Below, piece after piece: positions 3,880-36,540 of a stretch of 36,540 nt of DNA (positions are counted from its first letter, which is position 1; every line of letters starts with the position of its first letter). The DNA is from an uncultured Acidimicrobiales bacterium (GTDB taxonomy: Bacteria; Actinomycetota; Acidimicrobiia; Acidimicrobiales; SZUA-35), in contig CALIFY010000077.1 of the NCBI GenBank assembly GCA_938021675.1, positions 1 through 36,540 of the forward strand, written 5' to 3'. The notes beneath the pieces were generated by a model. The model was not told the DNA's origin, did not search any database, and worked only from the letters and a program-made list of their open reading frames with translations. A program made the translations under genes and the position numbers.

Positions 3880-5277
3880 GTGGAGTACCGAAGCGCGCTT
3901 GCCTACCTAGAGCGCCACACCAACCTTGAAGGTAACCGGAGCGGGCGTTTCTCGTCCCCCATGCCGACCGCAGGCCTGACCGGCGGGCTGAGCCTTGAGC
4001 CGATGAACGAGCTGTTGTCGGCCCTCGGTGACCCACACCGGGCATTCCGGTCGATACACCTCACCGGCACGAACGGTAAAGGTTCCACGGCACGAATGAT
4101 TGCTGCCGTGCTTCAGGCCATGGAGTTGTCCGTCGGTCTGTACACCAGCCCGAACCTCGACAAGGTCAACGAACGGCTCCGGTGGGACGGCAAGGACATC
4201 ACCGACGAGGATTTTGCCAGGGTGATCGGCCTGTTGGCCTCCGTCGAACCGCTGCTCAACCGTCCGCCGAGCAGATTCGAGCTGCTCACGGCGGCGGCAT
4301 TCGTATGGTTTGCCGAACAAGGAGTCGAAGTAGCCGTTATCGAAGTCGGTCTCCTCGGTCGGTTCGACGCCACCAACGTTGTAGATGCAGACGTCGCTGT
4401 CATCACCAACATCGGGAAAGATCACACCGCGGGTGAAGACGGATGGGCGGCCGAAGTAGCGGGAGAAAAAGCGGGAATCATCTCAGCCGGCAGCCACGTA
4501 ATTCTCGGGGCGCCCATGGGCGACCTGCGCCCGATCTTCGAATCGGAAATGGTTGCCGCCGCCGCATCGACCGATCAGAACAACGGCGAAGTCGACCACA
4601 ACGCCAGAACACCCACGATATGGGAAGCCGGAGCCGACTTCGAAGTCGAGTCGAACCAGCTGGCGTTCGGTGGCCGGGTCATCGACGTACGCACCCCGGA
4701 GAGCAATTACGAACAACTGTTTCTTCCAGTGCACGGCAGTCACCAAGGCGAAAATGCCGCGACGGCACTTGCCAGCCTCGAAGCGTTCTTTGGTCGACCC
4801 GTTCCCGAGGAACTCGTCGGTGCCGCCTGGGAAGGGCTCGAACTGCCCGGTCGTTTCGAGCTCGTCGGCCGCGAGCCGGCGGTCGTGCTCGACGGGGCCC
4901 ACAACCCCGACGGGGCCGAAGCGGCCTACCGCACTCTCACCGAGGAGTTCGCTCGCCTCGGCTCGTGGGTATTGGTCGTCGGAATGCTGAAAGGCAAAGA
5001 CCCGACCGAGATGCTCAAGGCTCTTGGCGCCGAAGACTTCGACGCCGTTATCTGTACCGCACCAGACTGGTCCCGGGCCGTGCCAGCCGACGAAATAGCC
5101 GCTGCCGCCGACGCGCTTGGGATTTCGGCCGAAGTTGTGCCCACCCCGGCCGAGGCCCTACAACGAGCCCGGGCCGTCACCGCCGCCGACGACCTCATCC
5201 TCGTGGCCGGCAGCCTCTATGTGGTTGGCGAAGCCCGTTCGGCCATCTTGGCCGAGGCCGAGGCTGCCGCCGGCTAA
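3880..5277 (+). CDS. folC: Bifunctional folylpolyglutamate synthase / dihydrofolate synthase
   Basis: FolC is a Mur-ligase-family enzyme that adds glutamate to dihydropteroate and to folates. The P-loop LTGTNGKGST lies at residues 61-70. The second conserved block GRFDATNV...ITNIGKDHT follows, then GEKAGII with the lysine that is carbamylated in this family. The C-terminal ligase domain has LDGAHNPDGAEA and ends after 465 residues, a normal length. The start is GTG at 3880; an upstream GCTGGA is a weak ribosome binding site. In many Actinobacteria valS precedes folC, but here clpX is directly upstream. The gene converges on the TadG-like gene with only seven bases between the stop codons. Confidence 0.95.
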   Translation: MEYRSALAYLERHTNLEGNRSGRFSSPMPTAGLTGGLSLEPMNELLSALGDPHRAFRSIHLTGTNGKGSTARMIAAVLQAMELSVGLYTSPNLDKVNERLRWDGKDITDEDFARVIGLLASVEPLLNRPPSRFELLTAAAFVWFAEQGVEVAVIEVGLLGRFDATNVVDADVAVITNIGKDHTAGEDGWAAEVAGEKAGIISAGSHVILGAPMGDLRPIFESEMVAAAASTDQNNGEVDHNARTPTIWEAGADFEVESNQLAFGGRVIDVRTPESNYEQLFLPVHGSHQGENAATALASLEAFFGRPVPEELVGAAWEGLELPGRFELVGREPAVVLDGAHNPDGAEAAYRTLTEEFARLGSWVLVVGMLKGKDPTEMLKALGAEDFDAVICTAPDWSRAVPADEIAAAADALGISAEVVPTPAEALQRARAVTAADDLILVAGSLYVVGEARSAILAEAEAAAG

Positions 5278-5284
5278 CCTCTCG

Positions 5285-6967
5285 CTATTCGACCAACCGG
5301 ACCGGGTCACCGAGCAGCTGAATGGCCCAACCGGAGCGGTCGCTTGGAGCGGCGAGCGTGTTGTAGCGAATCTTCCACCAACAGTCAGCCCCACAGGTGT
5401 AGCCGGGAGGAATATCGACCGCCATCTGGACCATGTGGTCGTTAAACCCATCACGGTCCGAGGTGTCGAGGCACGGGTTGCCACCGAGACCCTGCCAATC
5501 GCAGGTGTCGGTGTGTCCTGCCCAGGGAGTCTCCAAGTAGTCCATCGTTGCCGGGGCTGCGGCCATTTGCCCCAGCGAATCGTCGACGTAGCGCCACGAG
5601 AACGGCATCGCATCACCGTTCGAGTCCTCGATCTGGATGTTGTCGATGTTCTCGGCGGCGTCGAAGAAGGTCACGATCATCTGCTCGCCAGCGTGGTCTT
5701 CGTCGATTTCAGCCAGGAAGAACGCGTCCTGTGCTGATGGGATCTCCCGGTAGAGCGGTAGCCACTCCAAGGCGTAGACCTGGGGGCAGGTCGGGTTCGT
5801 GACTGAGAATGCGCACAGGCCCGTCGTGCCCGATGGCGTCGTACGGAGAGCGAAACGGTTGAGGCCAGACTCCTGCCAAAAGGAGTCGGCGGGATCGAGG
5901 TCGACCAGCGTCGGGTTCCGAGTACGAATCTTGACGTAATAGAACCCACCATTGACCCCTGGATTGGCCAACCCGGTTGCGAGGTTGGTCCAACCGCATT
6001 GGTTGCGGCCGGGCAGGATATGAGCGAACGGGGCATTGTTGGTCACGAAGGATCGGTGTGCGCTTGTGGTACTCGGACCGAAGATCTCGATGTCGAGTCT
6101 CGGTGGGATGCGGTTGTAACTTTGGTGTCGGTCACCGGTACTCGGCGTTACGCCGCCACAGTTGGTGCCAGGTTCGAAGATGCCGATGTCGACCGGACCC
6201 GACCCTGGCTGCACTTCCACAACGAACACGTAGGCATCGTCGTCAAAGTTGACGTTGGCAATCGACGTGGCATTCACCGCACCGTTTCCTGGACCACAGG
6301 TGCGATGCCAACCCTCGTTGAATGGCGCACCGAAGTCTGGTCCGTCATGGAACCCGGTGAGGAACTGGTCGCCCTGCTCCTTGTCCTGACAATACGCCGT
6401 GTTGGCCAGCCACATCTGGTCGCTGGGCAGACCTAGACCGGTCAGGTCGCCGGTCCCCAAGCCTGAGCTGGGGTTCCCGAGATAGACGGGTTGAATGTAC
6501 TCCGAGATGCTGTACCGCTCGATCTCGACCGAGTCGAGGACTAGACGGCCGAAGAACACGCCAGCTTCGTTCTTGATCTCGACCTCAAGGCTCTCGCTGT
6601 TCGGGTTGCTGACCCTGATCTGGGGGAGAGGACCGGAGTCGAAATCTGAATTGTCACCCGGAGTTGCGTCGGTATAGCCGTTTTTGGCGGCCACGTCGCG
6701 AGCCGCTATCTCAGCTGCCGAGAAGTCCGGGAGATAGACGACGCCGGCCAGCGCCGCCGCATCGGCCGCTCGTTGGGTCTTCTGCCCATCGAGATACCAC
6801 GAGCCGATATCGGTAGCGAAAGCGGCGAAGATCATCAACGGAACGAGCAGCAGCGCCGTCTGGGCGATCACGAACCCGGCTTGTCGCCGGTGGCGATCGG
6901 TGCCAGAGTCGTCCGGGTCGAGCGCGGCGCGGTCGTCGGTAGAGGAATGGTTTTGGGGCTCAGTCAT
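5285..6967 (-). CDS. TadG-like pilus assembly / surface protein
   Basis: The protein has a charged cytoplasmic N-terminus of about 31 residues, one membrane helix (about 33-58, VIAQTALLLVPLMIF) and a long outer domain. The block QRAADAAALAGV straight after the helix is the TadG signature. The roughly 500-residue outer part is rich in Gly, Asp and aromatic residues and holds over a dozen cysteines in pairs (for example TCGADCWW near the end), which suggests a disulfide-stabilised extracellular domain. TadG-family proteins are minor components of Flp/Tad pili. It is the last gene of a four-gene minus-strand module and has GAGGCGG before the ATG. Unlike its neighbours, the residue five after the glycine of the processing-like site is Gln, not Glu. 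The exact role of the outer domain is unknown. Confidence 0.75.
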   Translation of the reverse strand: MTEPQNHSSTDDRAALDPDDSGTDRHRRQAGFVIAQTALLLVPLMIFAAFATDIGSWYLDGQKTQRAADAAALAGVVYLPDFSAAEIAARDVAAKNGYTDATPGDNSDFDSGPLPQIRVSNPNSESLEVEIKNEAGVFFGRLVLDSVEIERYSISEYIQPVYLGNPSSGLGTGDLTGLGLPSDQMWLANTAYCQDKEQGDQFLTGFHDGPDFGAPFNEGWHRTCGPGNGAVNATSIANVNFDDDAYVFVVEVQPGSGPVDIGIFEPGTNCGGVTPSTGDRHQSYNRIPPRLDIEIFGPSTTSAHRSFVTNNAPFAHILPGRNQCGWTNLATGLANPGVNGGFYYVKIRTRNPTLVDLDPADSFWQESGLNRFALRTTPSGTTGLCAFSVTNPTCPQVYALEWLPLYREIPSAQDAFFLAEIDEDHAGEQMIVTFFDAAENIDNIQIEDSNGDAMPFSWRYVDDSLGQMAAAPATMDYLETPWAGHTDTCDWQGLGGNPCLDTSDRDGFNDHMVQMAVDIPPGYTCGADCWWKIRYNTLAAPSDRSGWAIQLLGDPVRLVE

Positions 6968-6980
6968 CGTTCCGCCTCGT

Positions 6981-7559
6981 TCAGTCGCCGGCGTTCGGTT
7001 CGATCCGCATCACGGCGGTGTCGACCATCGAAATATCTGTGTTGCCGAGAAAGCCGGTCACGAGCGGACGGGATACCTCGACACGCACGCCGACGTGATC
7101 AGAAGAGTTCAAATCGTTCAAGCGAGTCGCCGGCGGCCACGCCCCATCGACCCAAGTCCCGTAGGTGCCAAAGTAGGTGGCGTCGTACACGCTGCACTGG
7201 CCAGGTATCCCCGGAGGCGCCGCCGTCTCACATGCCGGAGGAATGGCGCCGTCCGGAGCGTTGGCCTTGTAGATCACTATGCGGTCGACGGCACCATCGA
7301 GATCTCCGACTGCGGCCTCGATCGATTGGACCGTGAACGAGTCGGTGCTGGTGTTGATCCCAAGCTGGGTCGACACCCGGGCGCCGCTTCGTGCCGCTTG
7401 GGTCACGAGTTGACTGTCACTCCAGGCCGTCCCCATCTCATAGGTGCCGAACCCCAAGGTCAATATCAAGCTGGCGACGATGGCGAACTCGACGAGGGCT
7501 GCGCCGCGCTCATCCGATCGATCGTCCGGTCGTAGTTTTTGGTGGCGACGTAGCATCAC
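6981..7559 (-). CDS. TadE-like pseudopilin
   Basis: This 192-residue protein has a short basic N-terminus, then RGAALVEFAIVASLILTLGF. That is the classic TadE processing site (Gly followed by xxxxE) joined to a hydrophobic helix. The outer part is about 140 residues and has one cysteine pair (CETAAPPGIPGQC). TadE proteins are minor pseudopilins cut by a prepilin peptidase and needed for Flp pilus assembly. The start is GTG 7559, or ATG three bases inside it, two bases after the upstream TGA, so coupling is likely. It lies between a second TadE-like gene and the TadG-like gene. Confidence 0.8.
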   Translation of the reverse strand: MMLRRHQKLRPDDRSDERGAALVEFAIVASLILTLGFGTYEMGTAWSDSQLVTQAARSGARVSTQLGINTSTDSFTVQSIEAAVGDLDGAVDRIVIYKANAPDGAIPPACETAAPPGIPGQCSVYDATYFGTYGTWVDGAWPPATRLNDLNSSDHVGVRVEVSRPLVTGFLGNTDISMVDTAVMRIEPNAGD

Positions 7560-32489: not shown

Positions 32490-34859
32490 ATGAGTGATCA
32501 TCCAGCCGGCGGGCCGGTCGACGGGTCGGAGAGCACGGATATCGACGTAGACGCCGATATATCATCGTCTCGAGAAGGCGGCCGAAGCAGAGATCGAGCG
32601 GGTGATAGGGGCGGTGAAGACGCCACCTTCGATGCGCCTGGGCGAAATTATGATTCGGGGCGGTGGAAGCCGGTTGACGAATCGCCGGTCGACGACGGAG
32701 ATAGTTCGTCGATAGTAGCTGATGCGCTCAAGACGTCGGAGTGGACGCCAGGTGACTGGGCCGAGCCGACCGGACGATCGACCACCGATGGACGGTTCGC
32801 TCCCGTCGACCGCTCGGTCGGTCCGTCGCATGGTGAGGCCGTGGCGCCGTCGACCACGAGTCCGAGCGCCACCGAAGCCGGTCGACCGATCCAAATCGAT
32901 TCCGACGATGGCCAGGTCACTATCGAGTTCCAACCCGAACCACCCTCCGGGCAACCGTCGATGGCCGACGAGCCGTCGGTAGTCAAACAACCAGCCGTTG
33001 CCGGCCCGACCGACGTTGTTGATGATGATGTTGGCCAGAGCGACCAAACCCGTCACTCGCCGCCGGACGGTGGTGGGTCGGGGCCACCGAGCGATCCGCT
33101 AGGTCGACGGCAACCGCTGGGAAGCCCTCGTTCTGGGCGTGGAGTCGAGAAGGACGCTGTGCCGGGTCGACCGCCCGAGACGGGCGGTGCCGAGCCGCAG
33201 CGAGAAGTCGGCCAGCAGGGGCGGAGGCCGATGCCCGGGGAGCGGGATCACGATCCAGCACCGACCGGTGAGTTGACGCGCCCGACCGTTCAAGCTCCAC
33301 CACCCCCACCGTCTTCCCTAACACCAACACCCCCGCCACCAGGACCCGCAGGTCGGCGCCCCGGTCCGAGAGGTGACGATCAGCGGCCTGATGTCGAGTC
33401 GAGAATCAGCGGTCGGGCAGTGCCCACCACACCCGATGTAGATGGCCCAGTACCAGCACCGGGTTCGAGCAGCTCTTCCAGCAGAGGAGTCGAGTCACGA
33501 CCCGCCATTGTCGGCCGAGGGGAGCGGCCGGGCGCCACTCGCTCGGCAACGACACCACCTCCCGGTTCTCCAATCGGTTCGTCGGGCCGGCGGAAGGTGC
33601 TAGGAATGCCGCCGCCGCCCACCGGTCCGCCAACGGCAGGCAAAGAGACGGTCACGGCTGCCACCCCGTCGGCGGGGACCGATCCGGTCATGCCTGGACG
33701 ACCAGAAACGGTCGACACGTCGAACCCGAACGATCGGTCCGGCGGAGCACGATCCGCTTCGCCGCCGATGCCGCCTCCGGGTTTGGCAATTGGTTCTGGT
33801 GGAGCGGTGCCGCCAGCGCCGCCTGCGGGTCCGACCCTCTCTCCGCCGCCATCGGCACCACAGACTGATACGGCCACGACCTCGGGGTCAGAGTCCGACG
33901 TAGTGACCGACGAGCCCGGTGTCATGGCTGACGAGCCCGGTGTCATGGCCGACGAGGAGGTCTCGTTCCGATTTCCGACGTTGCTTGAGCCGTCATCGTC
34001 TCCGCTGCGGGTGCCGCTGATGTTGTTGGCCGGCGCCGCTGTCGTAGTCGTCATAGCCAACCTTGCCCTTGCAGCAGGGCTTGTTCGCGGGCTGGGAAGC
34101 CCGAGCGAGCTGTCGGCCTTTCTCCAAGGATTCAGCGTCTGGACCGGGATGCTCGCTGTTCTTGCTTCGGGCCTGATAGTCGTCCGGCCACCCGCTTCGG
34201 AGCGGGTTGTACTTGCAGTAACGGTCTTCGGGGCGCTCGTCATTGGCGGCGGCGCGCTTGGGTTCTTGTTATCGCTCCGCCTCAGCGGCCCCTCTGACCT
34301 GATTCGGATCGTGTTTGAGGGACTGACCGGCGCTCCCGGCGGTGCGGTGATGCTGGGCGGCCTGGCCATCGCCACCGCCCGCCAGACGGCAACCGGTGGG
34401 AAGCCGCCGGTCGAGCTACCCGTGTTTGGCATGCTGTTGGTTGCCGGCCTGCAATCATTGAGCGGCATAGCGTCGGGGTCTATTGGGTTTTTCGACTTCT
34501 TCGGACCGGGGGAGCGACTGGCGATTGCTCTTGGTGCGTTCGATTTGCGACCCGCGGCCCTGTTGCTCGCCAGTGCCGTTCTGTTGCTTCTGTCACCGTT
34601 TCCGACGGGCTCGCTCTCTCGAGTCGTGGCGATAGCAGCGGCCGGCGTCGCCAGCATGAGCCTGTTCGGTGCCCTCGTGTTCATCGTCGTTGGGCAAAGC
34701 GTGGGAGCCCAGGCGTCTGGGATTCTGTCAGCCCCGTCCACCGTTGCGATTGCGGCGGTGGCAGCCGTCTTGGCGTTGTTGGCTGATCAGTCGACGACGT
34801 CGGATAGTCGGCCAGACTCGACCACGCCCGATAGTGTCCCGACCCCGCCCGCTTCATGA
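32490..34859 (+). CDS. Large protein with disordered Pro/Gly/Ser-rich region and C-terminal membrane domain
   Basis: I do not recognise a family. Residues 1 to about 500 are low-complexity, rich in Asp, Ser, Pro, Gly and Arg, with proline runs (for example around 33299-33345) and a tandem DEPGVMA repeat near residue 475. The last 290 residues hold about eight hydrophobic helices (VPLMLLAGAAVVVVIANLAL is the first), then a short Ser/Thr/Pro tail. The shape suggests an integral membrane protein with a long cytoplasmic or wall-facing tail. ATG 32490 is chosen; a TTG at 32472 is also in frame. Its stop overlaps the next gene's start (ATGA), so the two are translated together. Function unknown. 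Confidence 0.75.
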   Translation: MSDHPAGGPVDGSESTDIDVDADISSSREGGRSRDRAGDRGGEDATFDAPGRNYDSGRWKPVDESPVDDGDSSSIVADALKTSEWTPGDWAEPTGRSTTDGRFAPVDRSVGPSHGEAVAPSTTSPSATEAGRPIQIDSDDGQVTIEFQPEPPSGQPSMADEPSVVKQPAVAGPTDVVDDDVGQSDQTRHSPPDGGGSGPPSDPLGRRQPLGSPRSGRGVEKDAVPGRPPETGGAEPQREVGQQGRRPMPGERDHDPAPTGELTRPTVQAPPPPPSSLTPTPPPPGPAGRRPGPRGDDQRPDVESRISGRAVPTTPDVDGPVPAPGSSSSSSRGVESRPAIVGRGERPGATRSATTPPPGSPIGSSGRRKVLGMPPPPTGPPTAGKETVTAATPSAGTDPVMPGRPETVDTSNPNDRSGGARSASPPMPPPGLAIGSGGAVPPAPPAGPTLSPPPSAPQTDTATTSGSESDVVTDEPGVMADEPGVMADEEVSFRFPTLLEPSSSPLRVPLMLLAGAAVVVVIANLALAAGLVRGLGSPSELSAFLQGFSVWTGMLAVLASGLIVVRPPASERVVLAVTVFGALVIGGGALGFLLSLRLSGPSDLIRIVFEGLTGAPGGAVMLGGLAIATARQTATGGKPPVELPVFGMLLVAGLQSLSGIASGSIGFFDFFGPGERLAIALGAFDLRPAALLLASAVLLLLSPFPTGSLSRVVAIAAAGVASMSLFGALVFIVVGQSVGAQASGILSAPSTVAIAAVAAVLALLADQSTTSDSRPDSTTPDSVPTPPAS
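33909..33950 (+). repeat. Two 21-bp tandem repeats inside the disordered protein gene
   Basis: Two copies of a 21-base unit (GACGAGCCCGG then TGTCATGGCY) differ only at the last base and encode DEPGVMA twice. The partial third copy diverges after GACGAG. The near identity suggests a recent duplication. Confidence 0.8.
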
Positions 34860-35551
34860 ATCATGACCTCACCGGATACGAGGAGATCGAGGATCCGATC
34901 GACGGGACGACGTGGCACGTCGACGTTTCGTTCACCGACTCGAACTGGACATGTGTTTGGGGATCGACCTGTGCCGGAATCCTCGACCACCCAGCGCCCG
35001 AACTCGGGCAGGGTTGCTGTTCGGTCGGGGCCCGCATGCTCGACGACGAGGAAGCGCTTCGGATCGGAGCGCTTGGGTTAACCCTCGACCCCGAGCGATT
35101 CCAATATCACGCCGTCGCCGTCGACAAGGGTGTGTTCACCGAGGGAAATCGGCAGGCGACAAGAGTGGTCGATGGGGCCTGTATTTTCCTCAACCGGCCG
35201 GGTTTCCCCGGTGGCGCTGGCTGTGCCCTTCATCTGGCAGCAGAAGACGAGGACGAATCGCCACTCGACTGGAAACCGGCCGTCTGCTGGCAGCTTCCGT
35301 TGAAGGTCGACGACCGTTCTGATGGCAGCCGAGTCCTGCGGCGATGGTCCCGGTCCGACTGGGGCGAAGGCGGCGCCTCGATGTCTTGGTGCTGCACTGA
35401 GCGGGAGGGGGTAACCGATAATCTTCCGTCCGCCTATGTCGGTGTTCAACCCGTCGCTGTGGCGCTGCAAGAGGAGCTCACCGCCCTCGTAGGTCGAGAG
35501 GTGGCGGTCGAACTTCGGCGACGTGTCGATCCATCCTTGGAGCGAACTTGA
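34856..35551 (+). CDS. Cysteine-rich protein resembling DUF3109/YkgJ metal-binding families
   Basis: This 231-residue soluble protein has cysteines in a regular pattern: TCVWGSTCAG, GQGCCSVGARM, GACIFLNRPG, GGAGCALH, KPAVCWQLPL and MSWCCTE. The run CC, then C-x-F-L, C-x-x-H and K-P-x-x-C-x-x-x-P-L is close to that of proteins thought to bind iron-sulfur or zinc (YkgJ and DUF3109). I can support the similarity in pattern but not a precise assignment. The start overlaps the previous gene's stop (ATGA), so it is coupled to the membrane protein. The end falls just before the tRNA-Ala promoter. Confidence 0.7.
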   Translation: MNHDLTGYEEIEDPIDGTTWHVDVSFTDSNWTCVWGSTCAGILDHPAPELGQGCCSVGARMLDDEEALRIGALGLTLDPERFQYHAVAVDKGVFTEGNRQATRVVDGACIFLNRPGFPGGAGCALHLAAEDEDESPLDWKPAVCWQLPLKVDDRSDGSRVLRRWSRSDWGEGGASMSWCCTEREGVTDNLPSAYVGVQPVAVALQEELTALVGREVAVELRRRVDPSLERT

Positions 35552-35603: not shown

Positions 35604-35676
35604 GGGGCTATAGCTCAGTTGGTAGAGCGCTTCCATGGCATGGAAGAGGTCAGGAGTTCAATTCTCCTTAGCTCCA
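35604..35676 (+). tRNA. tRNA-Ala (anticodon GGC)
   Basis: The acceptor stem pairs GGGGCTA with TAGCTCC (one G-U), with discriminator A. The D arm is GCTC-AGTTGGTA-GAGC. The anticodon stem CTTCC/GGAAG carries the loop ATGGCAT, giving anticodon GGC. The T arm has GGAGTTCAATTCTCC. No CCA is encoded. Its 3' half probably served as the attachment site for the integrase downstream. Confidence 0.95.
35650..35676 (+). other. Putative attachment site (3' part of tRNA-Ala)
   Basis: An integrase C-terminus points towards this tRNA from 70 bases away, the usual arrangement at a tRNA attachment site, where the element's crossover lies in the T-arm/acceptor part. The matching far copy would be outside the window. 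Confidence 0.35.
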
Positions 35677-35687
35677 CTCCCCGGAAT

Positions 35688-35712
35688 CCCCGCTCCAGTA
35701 GCGGGGATTTTT
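35688..35712 (+). terminator. Intrinsic terminator after tRNA-Ala
   Basis: A perfect 7-bp GC-rich stem, CCCCGCT/AGCGGGG with a five-base loop, is followed by A and five T residues. It starts 12 bases after the tRNA. Confidence 0.88.
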
Positions 35713-35746
35713 CATACCCAGCCAGTGAACAGATGGCGTGCAAAAG

Positions 35747-36310
35747 TCACTTGGGACCCTTCGTTGGGACCCTACCGGTAGCGTCGAGGGGCAGCGGTGC
35801 GAGCCGAGACACTTGGCTCGTTCGATGGCGGTAGATTTGCTCGATCATTCGCTCGCTAGTACCTGCCCAGTCTGCGACCTCACAGATCTCGGCGTGATGG
35901 TCGAGTTGAAACGTGATGGCGGTGTGACGAAGTTCGTATGGCAGGTAACTGTCGAGACCCAATCCTTCGCAGCGCCTGGCGAGTGACCGGCGAAGGTTGT
36001 TCCGGTCGTGGGCCGTGCCATTGCGGGTTGTGATCACGAAATCATGGACGGCGGTCCATCTGGTGCCGGCCACTGACATTTCGTCGAGCTGCTCGACTCG
36101 CCACTTATCGAGGAGTGACATGGTGTCGTCGTCAATCGGAACGCGCCGTCGCGACCGACGTGTCTTTGGTGGAACTAGCTTGTTTTTGCTCGACATCTGC
36201 GCATCGACCCGAAGGGTCATCGCCTCAACATCAATTCGAGACCATCGAAGTGCCCGAGCCTCCGACGGTCGAAGGCCGCAACGGCCGCAAAGGTCGACCA
36301 CGAGCTGTAG
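35747..36310 (-). pseudogene. Tyrosine recombinase (integrase), N-terminal part missing
   Basis: Only the catalytic half of a phage/island integrase remains, about 185-188 residues. The active-site residues are readable: Arg in GLRPSEARALRW, Lys in VPPKTRRSRRRVPI, the Y-E-L-R-H block (Arg and His, with Tyr where His is common), Trp in VADWAGTS, and the nucleophile Tyr in EQIYRH. The SAM-like DNA-binding N-terminal domain that should precede LVVDLCGRCG is absent. The sequence changes character at about 36310-36340, where a transposase unit begins, so an insertion sequence probably interrupted the gene. A GTG at 36301 could start a short product, but it would be inactive or altered. It is convergent with tRNA-Ala. 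Confidence 0.8.
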
Positions 36311-36334
36311 CGGGCCAGTACTGGAAGTACCCTG

Positions 36335-36540
36335 GTTTGACGGACATCTAGTCTGAGGCGACGTTTGTTGTCTTGGAGGGGAAGTCCAGATGCCACGTGC
36401 ACATCCGCCTGAGTTCCGTTTGCGTGCTGTTGAGCTTGCCCGTTTAGGCGAGGCCCCGGTGTCCCAGATCGCGCAAGATTTAGGGATCTCTGATTCCTGT
36501 TTGCGTGGCTGGGTGAAACAGGCCGATCTCGATGAGGGCC
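36335..36540 (+). mobile_element. Left end of an IS3-type insertion sequence (incomplete)
   Basis: The integrase reading ends near 36310-36335, and a short non-coding stretch beginning about GGTTTGACGGACA leads into a transposase gene. The exact terminal repeat and target duplication cannot be defined, because the right end lies outside the window. Confidence 0.55.
36390..36540 (+). CDS. IS3-family transposase OrfA (partial at window end)
   Basis: The first 50 codons are visible. ATG 36390 has GGAGGG nine bases upstream. The product starts MPRAHPPEFRLRAVELARLG and continues with a helix-turn-helix (VSQIAQDLGISDSCLRGWV), the classic DNA-binding start of IS3-type OrfA proteins. The rest, and the OrfB integrase part expected by frameshift, fall beyond the window. 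Confidence 0.85.
   Translation, partial: MPRAHPPEFRLRAVELARLGEAPVSQIAQDLGISDSCLRGWVKQADLDEG

Follow-up and report, generated by a model that had tools for sequence, protein, structure and literature searches.

A probable integration site at tRNA-Ala(GGC) beside a broken tyrosine integrase gene in an uncultured Acidimicrobiales bacterium

Organization of the tRNA-Ala(GGC) end of contig C77

The window analysed here is the entire 36540-bp contig C77 of an uncultured Acidimicrobiales genome (G000; 4.45 Mb in 99 contigs). Near its right end, a tRNA-Ala(GGC) gene was identified on the forward strand at positions 35604–35676 (the last base may also be placed at 35677) by both ARAGORN and Rfam (RF00005, 68.3 bits), as the preliminary description had proposed, and the contig ends 864 bp past this gene. 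Element insertion at the end of a tRNA gene is a common event in bacteria, and the tRNA-Ala gene is regarded as the probable attachment site gene of the locus, with a predicted 43-bp att core in its 3' half (35635–35677, forward strand) that is exactly duplicated in a congener (G005). The left flank of the tRNA gene is occupied by a gene for a conserved 231-aa protein (34856–35551, forward strand), to which no function was assigned and for which Pfam gave no match. This gene has matches with E-values below 1e-70 in 10 of the 11 congeners, and its best named matches are Acidimicrobiales or Acidimicrobiia assemblies, most of them derived from metagenomes. When it was used as a query against genome contigs, 172 relatives were obtained and 80 were kept; ARAGORN found tRNA-Ala(GGC) in six of these 80, all on contigs of genomes already included in the comparison.

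A terminator-like hairpin lies 3' of the tRNA gene (35683–35711, forward strand; −18.4 kcal/mol, z = −4.19 compared with shuffled sequences), and its 3' arm leads into five Ts. The terminator suggested earlier is visible as a stable hairpin with a T run, but it was missed by a simple terminator scanner. Because similar hairpins are also found 3' of tRNA-Ala in congeners, the data do not fix the exact boundary of the putative element at the tRNA end (35676), where it had been placed, rather than past the hairpin (∼35712). Base composition gives no mark of the boundary either, the G + C content of the integrase fragment being 0.598 vs. 0.614 for the contig (SD 0.028).

A truncated tyrosine integrase gene convergent with the tRNA gene

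An open reading frame encoding the C-terminal catalytic part of a tyrosine integrase (35747–36321, reverse strand) is convergent with the tRNA gene at a distance of 70 bp. Its product matches PF00589 (Phage_integrase) at 35747–36301 (E = 5.8e-13), covering positions 27–169 of the 172-position profile. The integrase read earlier at this position was thus recovered with its catalytic domain and orientation, but only as a C-terminal fragment: the N-terminal DNA-binding domains are absent, and the open frame enters an insertion sequence at 36322. In an alignment with a 390-aa relative encoded in the same genome, the first residue of the 184-aa ORF falls opposite residue 200, and the window integrase therefore appears, by this comparison, to lack ∼190–200 N-terminal residues.

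The canonical residues of tyrosine recombinases are R-K-H-R-(H/W)-Y. The catalytic residues had been described as readable, which is true for R, K, R, and Y, but both histidine positions, two of the six canonical ones, differ and are occupied by Tyr (Tyr122) and Thr (Thr148). The same pattern is seen in an alignment of 25 rows made from fetched relatives, which is not a survey: among the 19 rows covering all sites, the first canonical His position is Tyr in every row and the H/W position is Thr in 18, whereas K is kept in 18 rows and both R and the Y are kept in all 19. In L100, one of six rows with partial coverage, the second His position is occupied by His. Judged from these aligned sequences, the integrase family appears to have both canonical active-site histidines replaced by Tyr and Thr.

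Two copies of TTGGGACCC with a 13-bp period (35751–35772) overlap the 3' end of the integrase gene and are the only occurrences of this motif in the window when both strands are searched. They may represent arm-binding sites of the integrase. Similar pairs with a period of ∼12 bp were seen by eye beside the integrases of L086 and L010 and those of the type found on contig C22 (see the next subsection). More generally, C-rich direct repeats of 6–9 bases with a period of ∼12–13 bp adjoin the integrase ends in L086, L010, L008 (∼2055–2078), L120, L122, and L124. Most of these repeats, which may be candidate arm-type integrase sites, were recognized by eye; a script requiring exact 8-mers picked up repeats only in the window and in L010, apart from a pair in L097 that is unrelated.

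An IS3-family element at the contig end and its relationship to contig C22

From ∼36322 onward, the integrase open frame changes to insertion-sequence DNA. The window holds 219 bp of this element, corresponding to its left end (36322–36540, forward strand), as defined by the terminal repeat and end mapping; the start of OrfA was read by eye at 36390, and OrfA is cut by the contig end. The preliminary description expected accessory cargo beyond the window; no cargo can be read here, where the integrase gene is interrupted by a transposable element within which the contig stops.

C77 ends with the same 141 bases with which contig C22 of the same genome begins, an exact overlap of which no further copy was located in the assembly. 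On C22, OrfA is followed by OrfB, which is split over two frames, by the right terminal repeat, and then by another integrase gene. The insertion-sequence pieces on C22 match HTH_Tnp_1, rve, and NF033516; the two pieces score 52.1 and 149.2 bits against NF033516, each below the cut-off of 160, which is set for the whole protein. At the two ends of the element, 22 of the first 26 bases agree in imperfect inverted repeats. These ends were confirmed by a full-length related copy of 76% identity (L246). CGA occurs on either side of it, indicating a 3-bp target duplication that rests on this one copy, as the left end of a further copy (L247) was not located. With OrfA/OrfB carrying HTH_Tnp_1 and rve, imperfect terminal inverted repeats, and a short duplication taken from the related copy, the element in the window can be assigned by sequence to the IS3 family, although it differs from typical members in that only 219 bp are present in the window and OrfB of the C22 copy is split over two frames.

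C22 was rejected as a plain continuation of C77, from which it differs in the integrase, in the hotspot occupied, and in the trinucleotide flanking the insertion sequence. The C22 integrase lacks its C-terminal part (Pfam profile positions 3–97 of 172). Because the first arginine motif is present in both the C77 and the C22 pieces, and blastp gave no match between them, they are not the halves of one gene. At L008 1183–3413, the C22 integrase gene adjoins an acyl-CoA dehydrogenase gene (named by eye), directly downstream of its 3' end, and in congeners integrase-like starts of this type lie on other contigs than tRNA-Ala. The corresponding site in G007 carries an integrase-like start that matches the C22 integrase at 41% in tblastn, and in G001 and G005 such starts were seen by eye in the DNA only; G011 is doubtful, the contig of G004 ends at the site, and a threonine dehydratase gene (by eye) comes next in G009. 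The 3' end of the acyl-CoA dehydrogenase gene thus appears as a second integration hotspot, where the integrase has been cut by the same insertion sequence. In addition, 24 bp on contig C55 of the same genome (L128 1735–1758) match, with 95.8% identity, the pair of repeats adjoining the C22 integrase and may mark the end of a further element of the C22 type.

The simplest reading of the two contigs is that two copies of the insertion sequence reside in two integrase genes at two hotspots and that the assembly was broken at this repeat. If C77 and C22 were instead true neighbours, the locus would be a hybrid of parts of two integrases, produced when two copies of the insertion sequence recombined. 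The exact 141-bp overlap, of which other copies were not found in the assembly, would fit such an arrangement; we nevertheless consider it improbable, because the two integrase pieces overlap within the catalytic domain, the C22 integrase occupies a hotspot that is separate from tRNA-Ala in congeners, and the flanking trinucleotides are TAC on C77 vs. GTC on C22, although the related copy shows a 3-bp duplication. It is also conceivable, with a very small probability, that the junction between the integrase and the insertion sequence (36321/36322) is an artefact of assembly. The contig does end in a repeat, the usual place of a misjoin, but it runs 219 bp beyond the junction, which is longer than the 141-bp overlap.

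Use of tRNA-Ala(GGC) as an integration site within the genus

The 3' half of the tRNA gene was searched for in 61 genomes, including the present one, using a 40-base pattern from the window and allowing up to three mismatches; 37 genomes matched. Extra copies were found in 5 of the 10 matched genomes of the genus (n = 12), whereas outside the genus each of the 27 genomes that matched (n = 49) contained a single copy; a pattern taken from the window itself may, however, overlook second copies that have diverged in distant genomes. G001 contains three copies and G002, G005, G007, and G010 contain two copies each, whereas G003, G008, G009, and G011 have a single copy. The copies are 848 bp apart in G002 and 1111 bp apart in G010, and the motif CGATTGAT precedes four of the six second copies, as expected for an arm shared by the elements.

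In most congeners, the tRNA gene has the same left neighbour as in the window. It lies within ∼100 bp after the 231-aa gene in G002, G003, G007, G008, and G011, and also in G010, the contig of which breaks inside tRNA-Ala. The distance is 2.4 kb in G005; the contig of G004 ends before tRNA-Ala, and in G001 and G009 the tRNA gene is located on a different contig. On the right side, a DDE transposase gene immediately follows tRNA-Ala in G007. G008 and G010 share a block of right-hand genes (oxygenase, P450, and DsbA-like; names by eye), which starts 10.4 kb past the tRNA gene in G008 and 3.7 kb past the second copy in G010, and the DNA between the tRNA and this block gave no protein match between the two genomes (ORFs of at least 120 aa, E 1e-15). 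G008 also carries a Rep-like fragment 1.4–1.7 kb after the tRNA gene, with 59% identity to the Rep of G005 over 118 aa. This piece of G008 and G005 was the only shared downstream protein found among the compared loci (without that side of G010), a comparison based on crude ORF picking in which antisense frames were chosen in places in G011 and G001.

In G005, an apparently complete 10.6-kb element (L051 3998–14687) is inserted at tRNA-Ala(GGC) between exact 43-bp repeats with a spacing of 10647 bp. Its genes include matches to PF00589, FtsK_SpoIIIE (46.6 bits), YaaC, and HTH families, together with a Rep_1 match of 28.8 bits, which is below the cut-off of 33.2. The integrase of this element shows 29% identity to that of the window in a poor multiple alignment and gave no tblastn match with the window fragment; by sequence, it belongs to a different type.

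These results support the use of tRNA-Ala(GGC) as an integration site in the genus. With regard to the comparison with relatives proposed in the preliminary description, the tRNA 3' half is indeed duplicated in congeners, but the window integrase was not found at tRNA-Ala in any of them: no match was obtained in the five congeners with >1 kb fetched past the tRNA (G002, G005, G007, G008, and G011), nor in the whole genome of G010. The congeners hence document the use of the site without showing its use by the window integrase, and the link between this integrase and the site, if correct, is one of position, orientation, and analogy.

Search for the far end of the element in the same genome

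In the 4.45-Mb genome, no second tRNA-Ala end was found in any of the 99 contigs using a 29-mer and a 40-mer with up to three mismatches and a 20-mer with up to two mismatches. The earlier reading of this region as the edge of an integrated element had named the lack of such a copy as one of two findings that would speak against it. That reading is favoured by the use of the same site in the genus (5/10 vs. 0/27, and the G005 element) but not by the own-genome search.

Three genes were tried as guides to the far flank and were rejected. The present genome gave no match to the carbonic-anhydrase-like gene (named by eye) that flanks the G005 element on the right. For the DsbA-like gene shared by G008 and G010, the best match is 70% on contig C23, and the other shared genes were not detected in the 19 kb fetched there. 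The threonine dehydratase gene, which lies to the right of the C22-type site in G009, was found on C55, the first 18 kb of which gave no match to the integrase queries.

It is possible, if somewhat less than an even chance, that the locus is a decayed relic, in which the integrase fragment is the sole remnant, the far end and the cargo have been lost, perhaps through a deletion caused by the insertion sequence, and the adjoining DNA is ordinary chromosome. The missing second tRNA end, the integrase that is already truncated, and the congeners with a single copy of the tRNA 3' half (G003, G008, G009, and G011), including G008 with its Rep-like fragment after the tRNA, would all be accounted for in this way. 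On the other hand, the far side may simply be unassembled, variable DNA probably being often lost from assemblies of this kind.

Relatives of the integrase and the probable type of the element

The nearest integrase relative found, with 52–53% identity, is located in G008, 88 bp from tRNA-Val(TAC) and in the same convergent layout. However, only 7 of the 26 matches among relatives (L063, L065, L066, L086, L097, L099, and L100) have a convergent tRNA gene whose end is no more than 700 bp from the 3' end of the integrase gene, a count in which some stretches end early and other integrases may use other sites. The neighbouring genes of four relatives were scanned with Pfam, and Rep or FtsK matches were obtained in all four, three of the seven matches being below the Pfam cut-offs. 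The full-length 390-aa relative in the same genome (L009, contig C28, 6079–9987) adjoins a Rep_1 gene (51.3 bits), shortly after which the contig ends; L093 is accompanied by FtsK (above the cut-off) and REP_ORF2-G2P, L088 by FtsK (above the cut-off) and Rep_1 (below it), and L086, with an integrase of 386 aa, by Rep_1 and FtsK, both below the cut-offs. For a fifth relative, which was listed only (L087), the contig ends shortly past the integrase. No phage structural genes were found among the scanned neighbours.

These Rep and FtsK matches point to AICE-like elements. A survey of AICEs (PMC3218068) describes a search for an integrase together with a Rep and an FtsK/SpoIIIE protein and states that the vast majority of AICEs with a tyrosine integrase reside in tRNA 3' ends; a word starting with Acidimicrob- occurs once in this survey. 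The window resembles AICEs of the pSAM2 type in having a tyrosine integrase beside a tRNA 3' end (PMC3218068), and Rep-like and FtsK/TraB-like genes, as in AICEs, are also present in the G005 element and beside the integrase relatives. AICE membership cannot, however, be claimed for the window itself, which differs from AICEs in showing no rep, tra, or far repeat and in carrying a truncated integrase.

Phage and plasmid integrases are more distant. The best-ranked phage matches are mycobacteriophage tyrosine integrases (at best, 35.5% identity over 97% of the fragment), and all were <60% identical among the best 8 of 169 records; they are less similar to the fragment than are integrases from within the genus (up to 53%). 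The best-ranked plasmid match shows 30.9% identity, and all were again <60% among the best 8 of 141 records. No further copies of the window integrase were found in genome contigs by pattern search or in viral contigs, and PDB sequences gave no match at E 0.01.

Taken together, we consider it likely that the right end of the window is the attL side of an immobilized, probably AICE-like island at tRNA-Ala, or of a relic of such an island. A tyrosine integrase would have inserted the element into the 3' half of tRNA-Ala(GGC). Integration of this kind leaves the tRNA gene intact, and a repeat of the tRNA 3' half is expected at the distal end of the insert; the window would represent the tRNA-proximal side. 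The element is most likely AICE-like, because relatives of its integrase adjoin Rep-like and FtsK/TraB-like genes. Later, the IS3-family element would have inserted into the integrase gene or, through an adjacent deletion, eliminated the 5' part of this gene. As the insertion sequence disrupted the integrase, the element is probably unable to excise on its own.

The site is thus an ordinary yet well-supported integration site with a broken integrase, the far end of which is unseen. A further integration hotspot is documented for uncultivated Acidimicrobiales, and one congener supplies an AICE-like element at it that is apparently complete; the integrase is to be read as truncated in the assembly, and the overlapping contig C22 is not to be taken as cargo of the island. 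A broader generalization is speculative, and we think it rather unlikely to hold as a whole: tRNA-Ala(GGC) would be a genus hotspot taken in turn by unrelated integrases, the resident integrases here and on C22 would have been cut by the same insertion sequence, insertion into integrases might recurrently fix islands in this lineage, and the integrase family would be one with both active-site histidines replaced.

Two further loci of the same genome carry related integrase sequences. A convergent integrase-like gene, with one stop in the match, is associated with tRNA-Pro(GGG) on contig C95 (L100, C95:18000–26000; 4140–7177), and a 37-bp direct repeat of the tRNA-Pro(GGG) 3' end is located 2958 bp away, forming a small element of which both ends are visible. 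On contig C32 (L010; 1–1005), a tRNA 3'-end-like fragment (recognized by eye) is followed by an integrase remnant with 52.7% identity to the window fragment over 91 aa, in which the second catalytic Arg position aligns with His.
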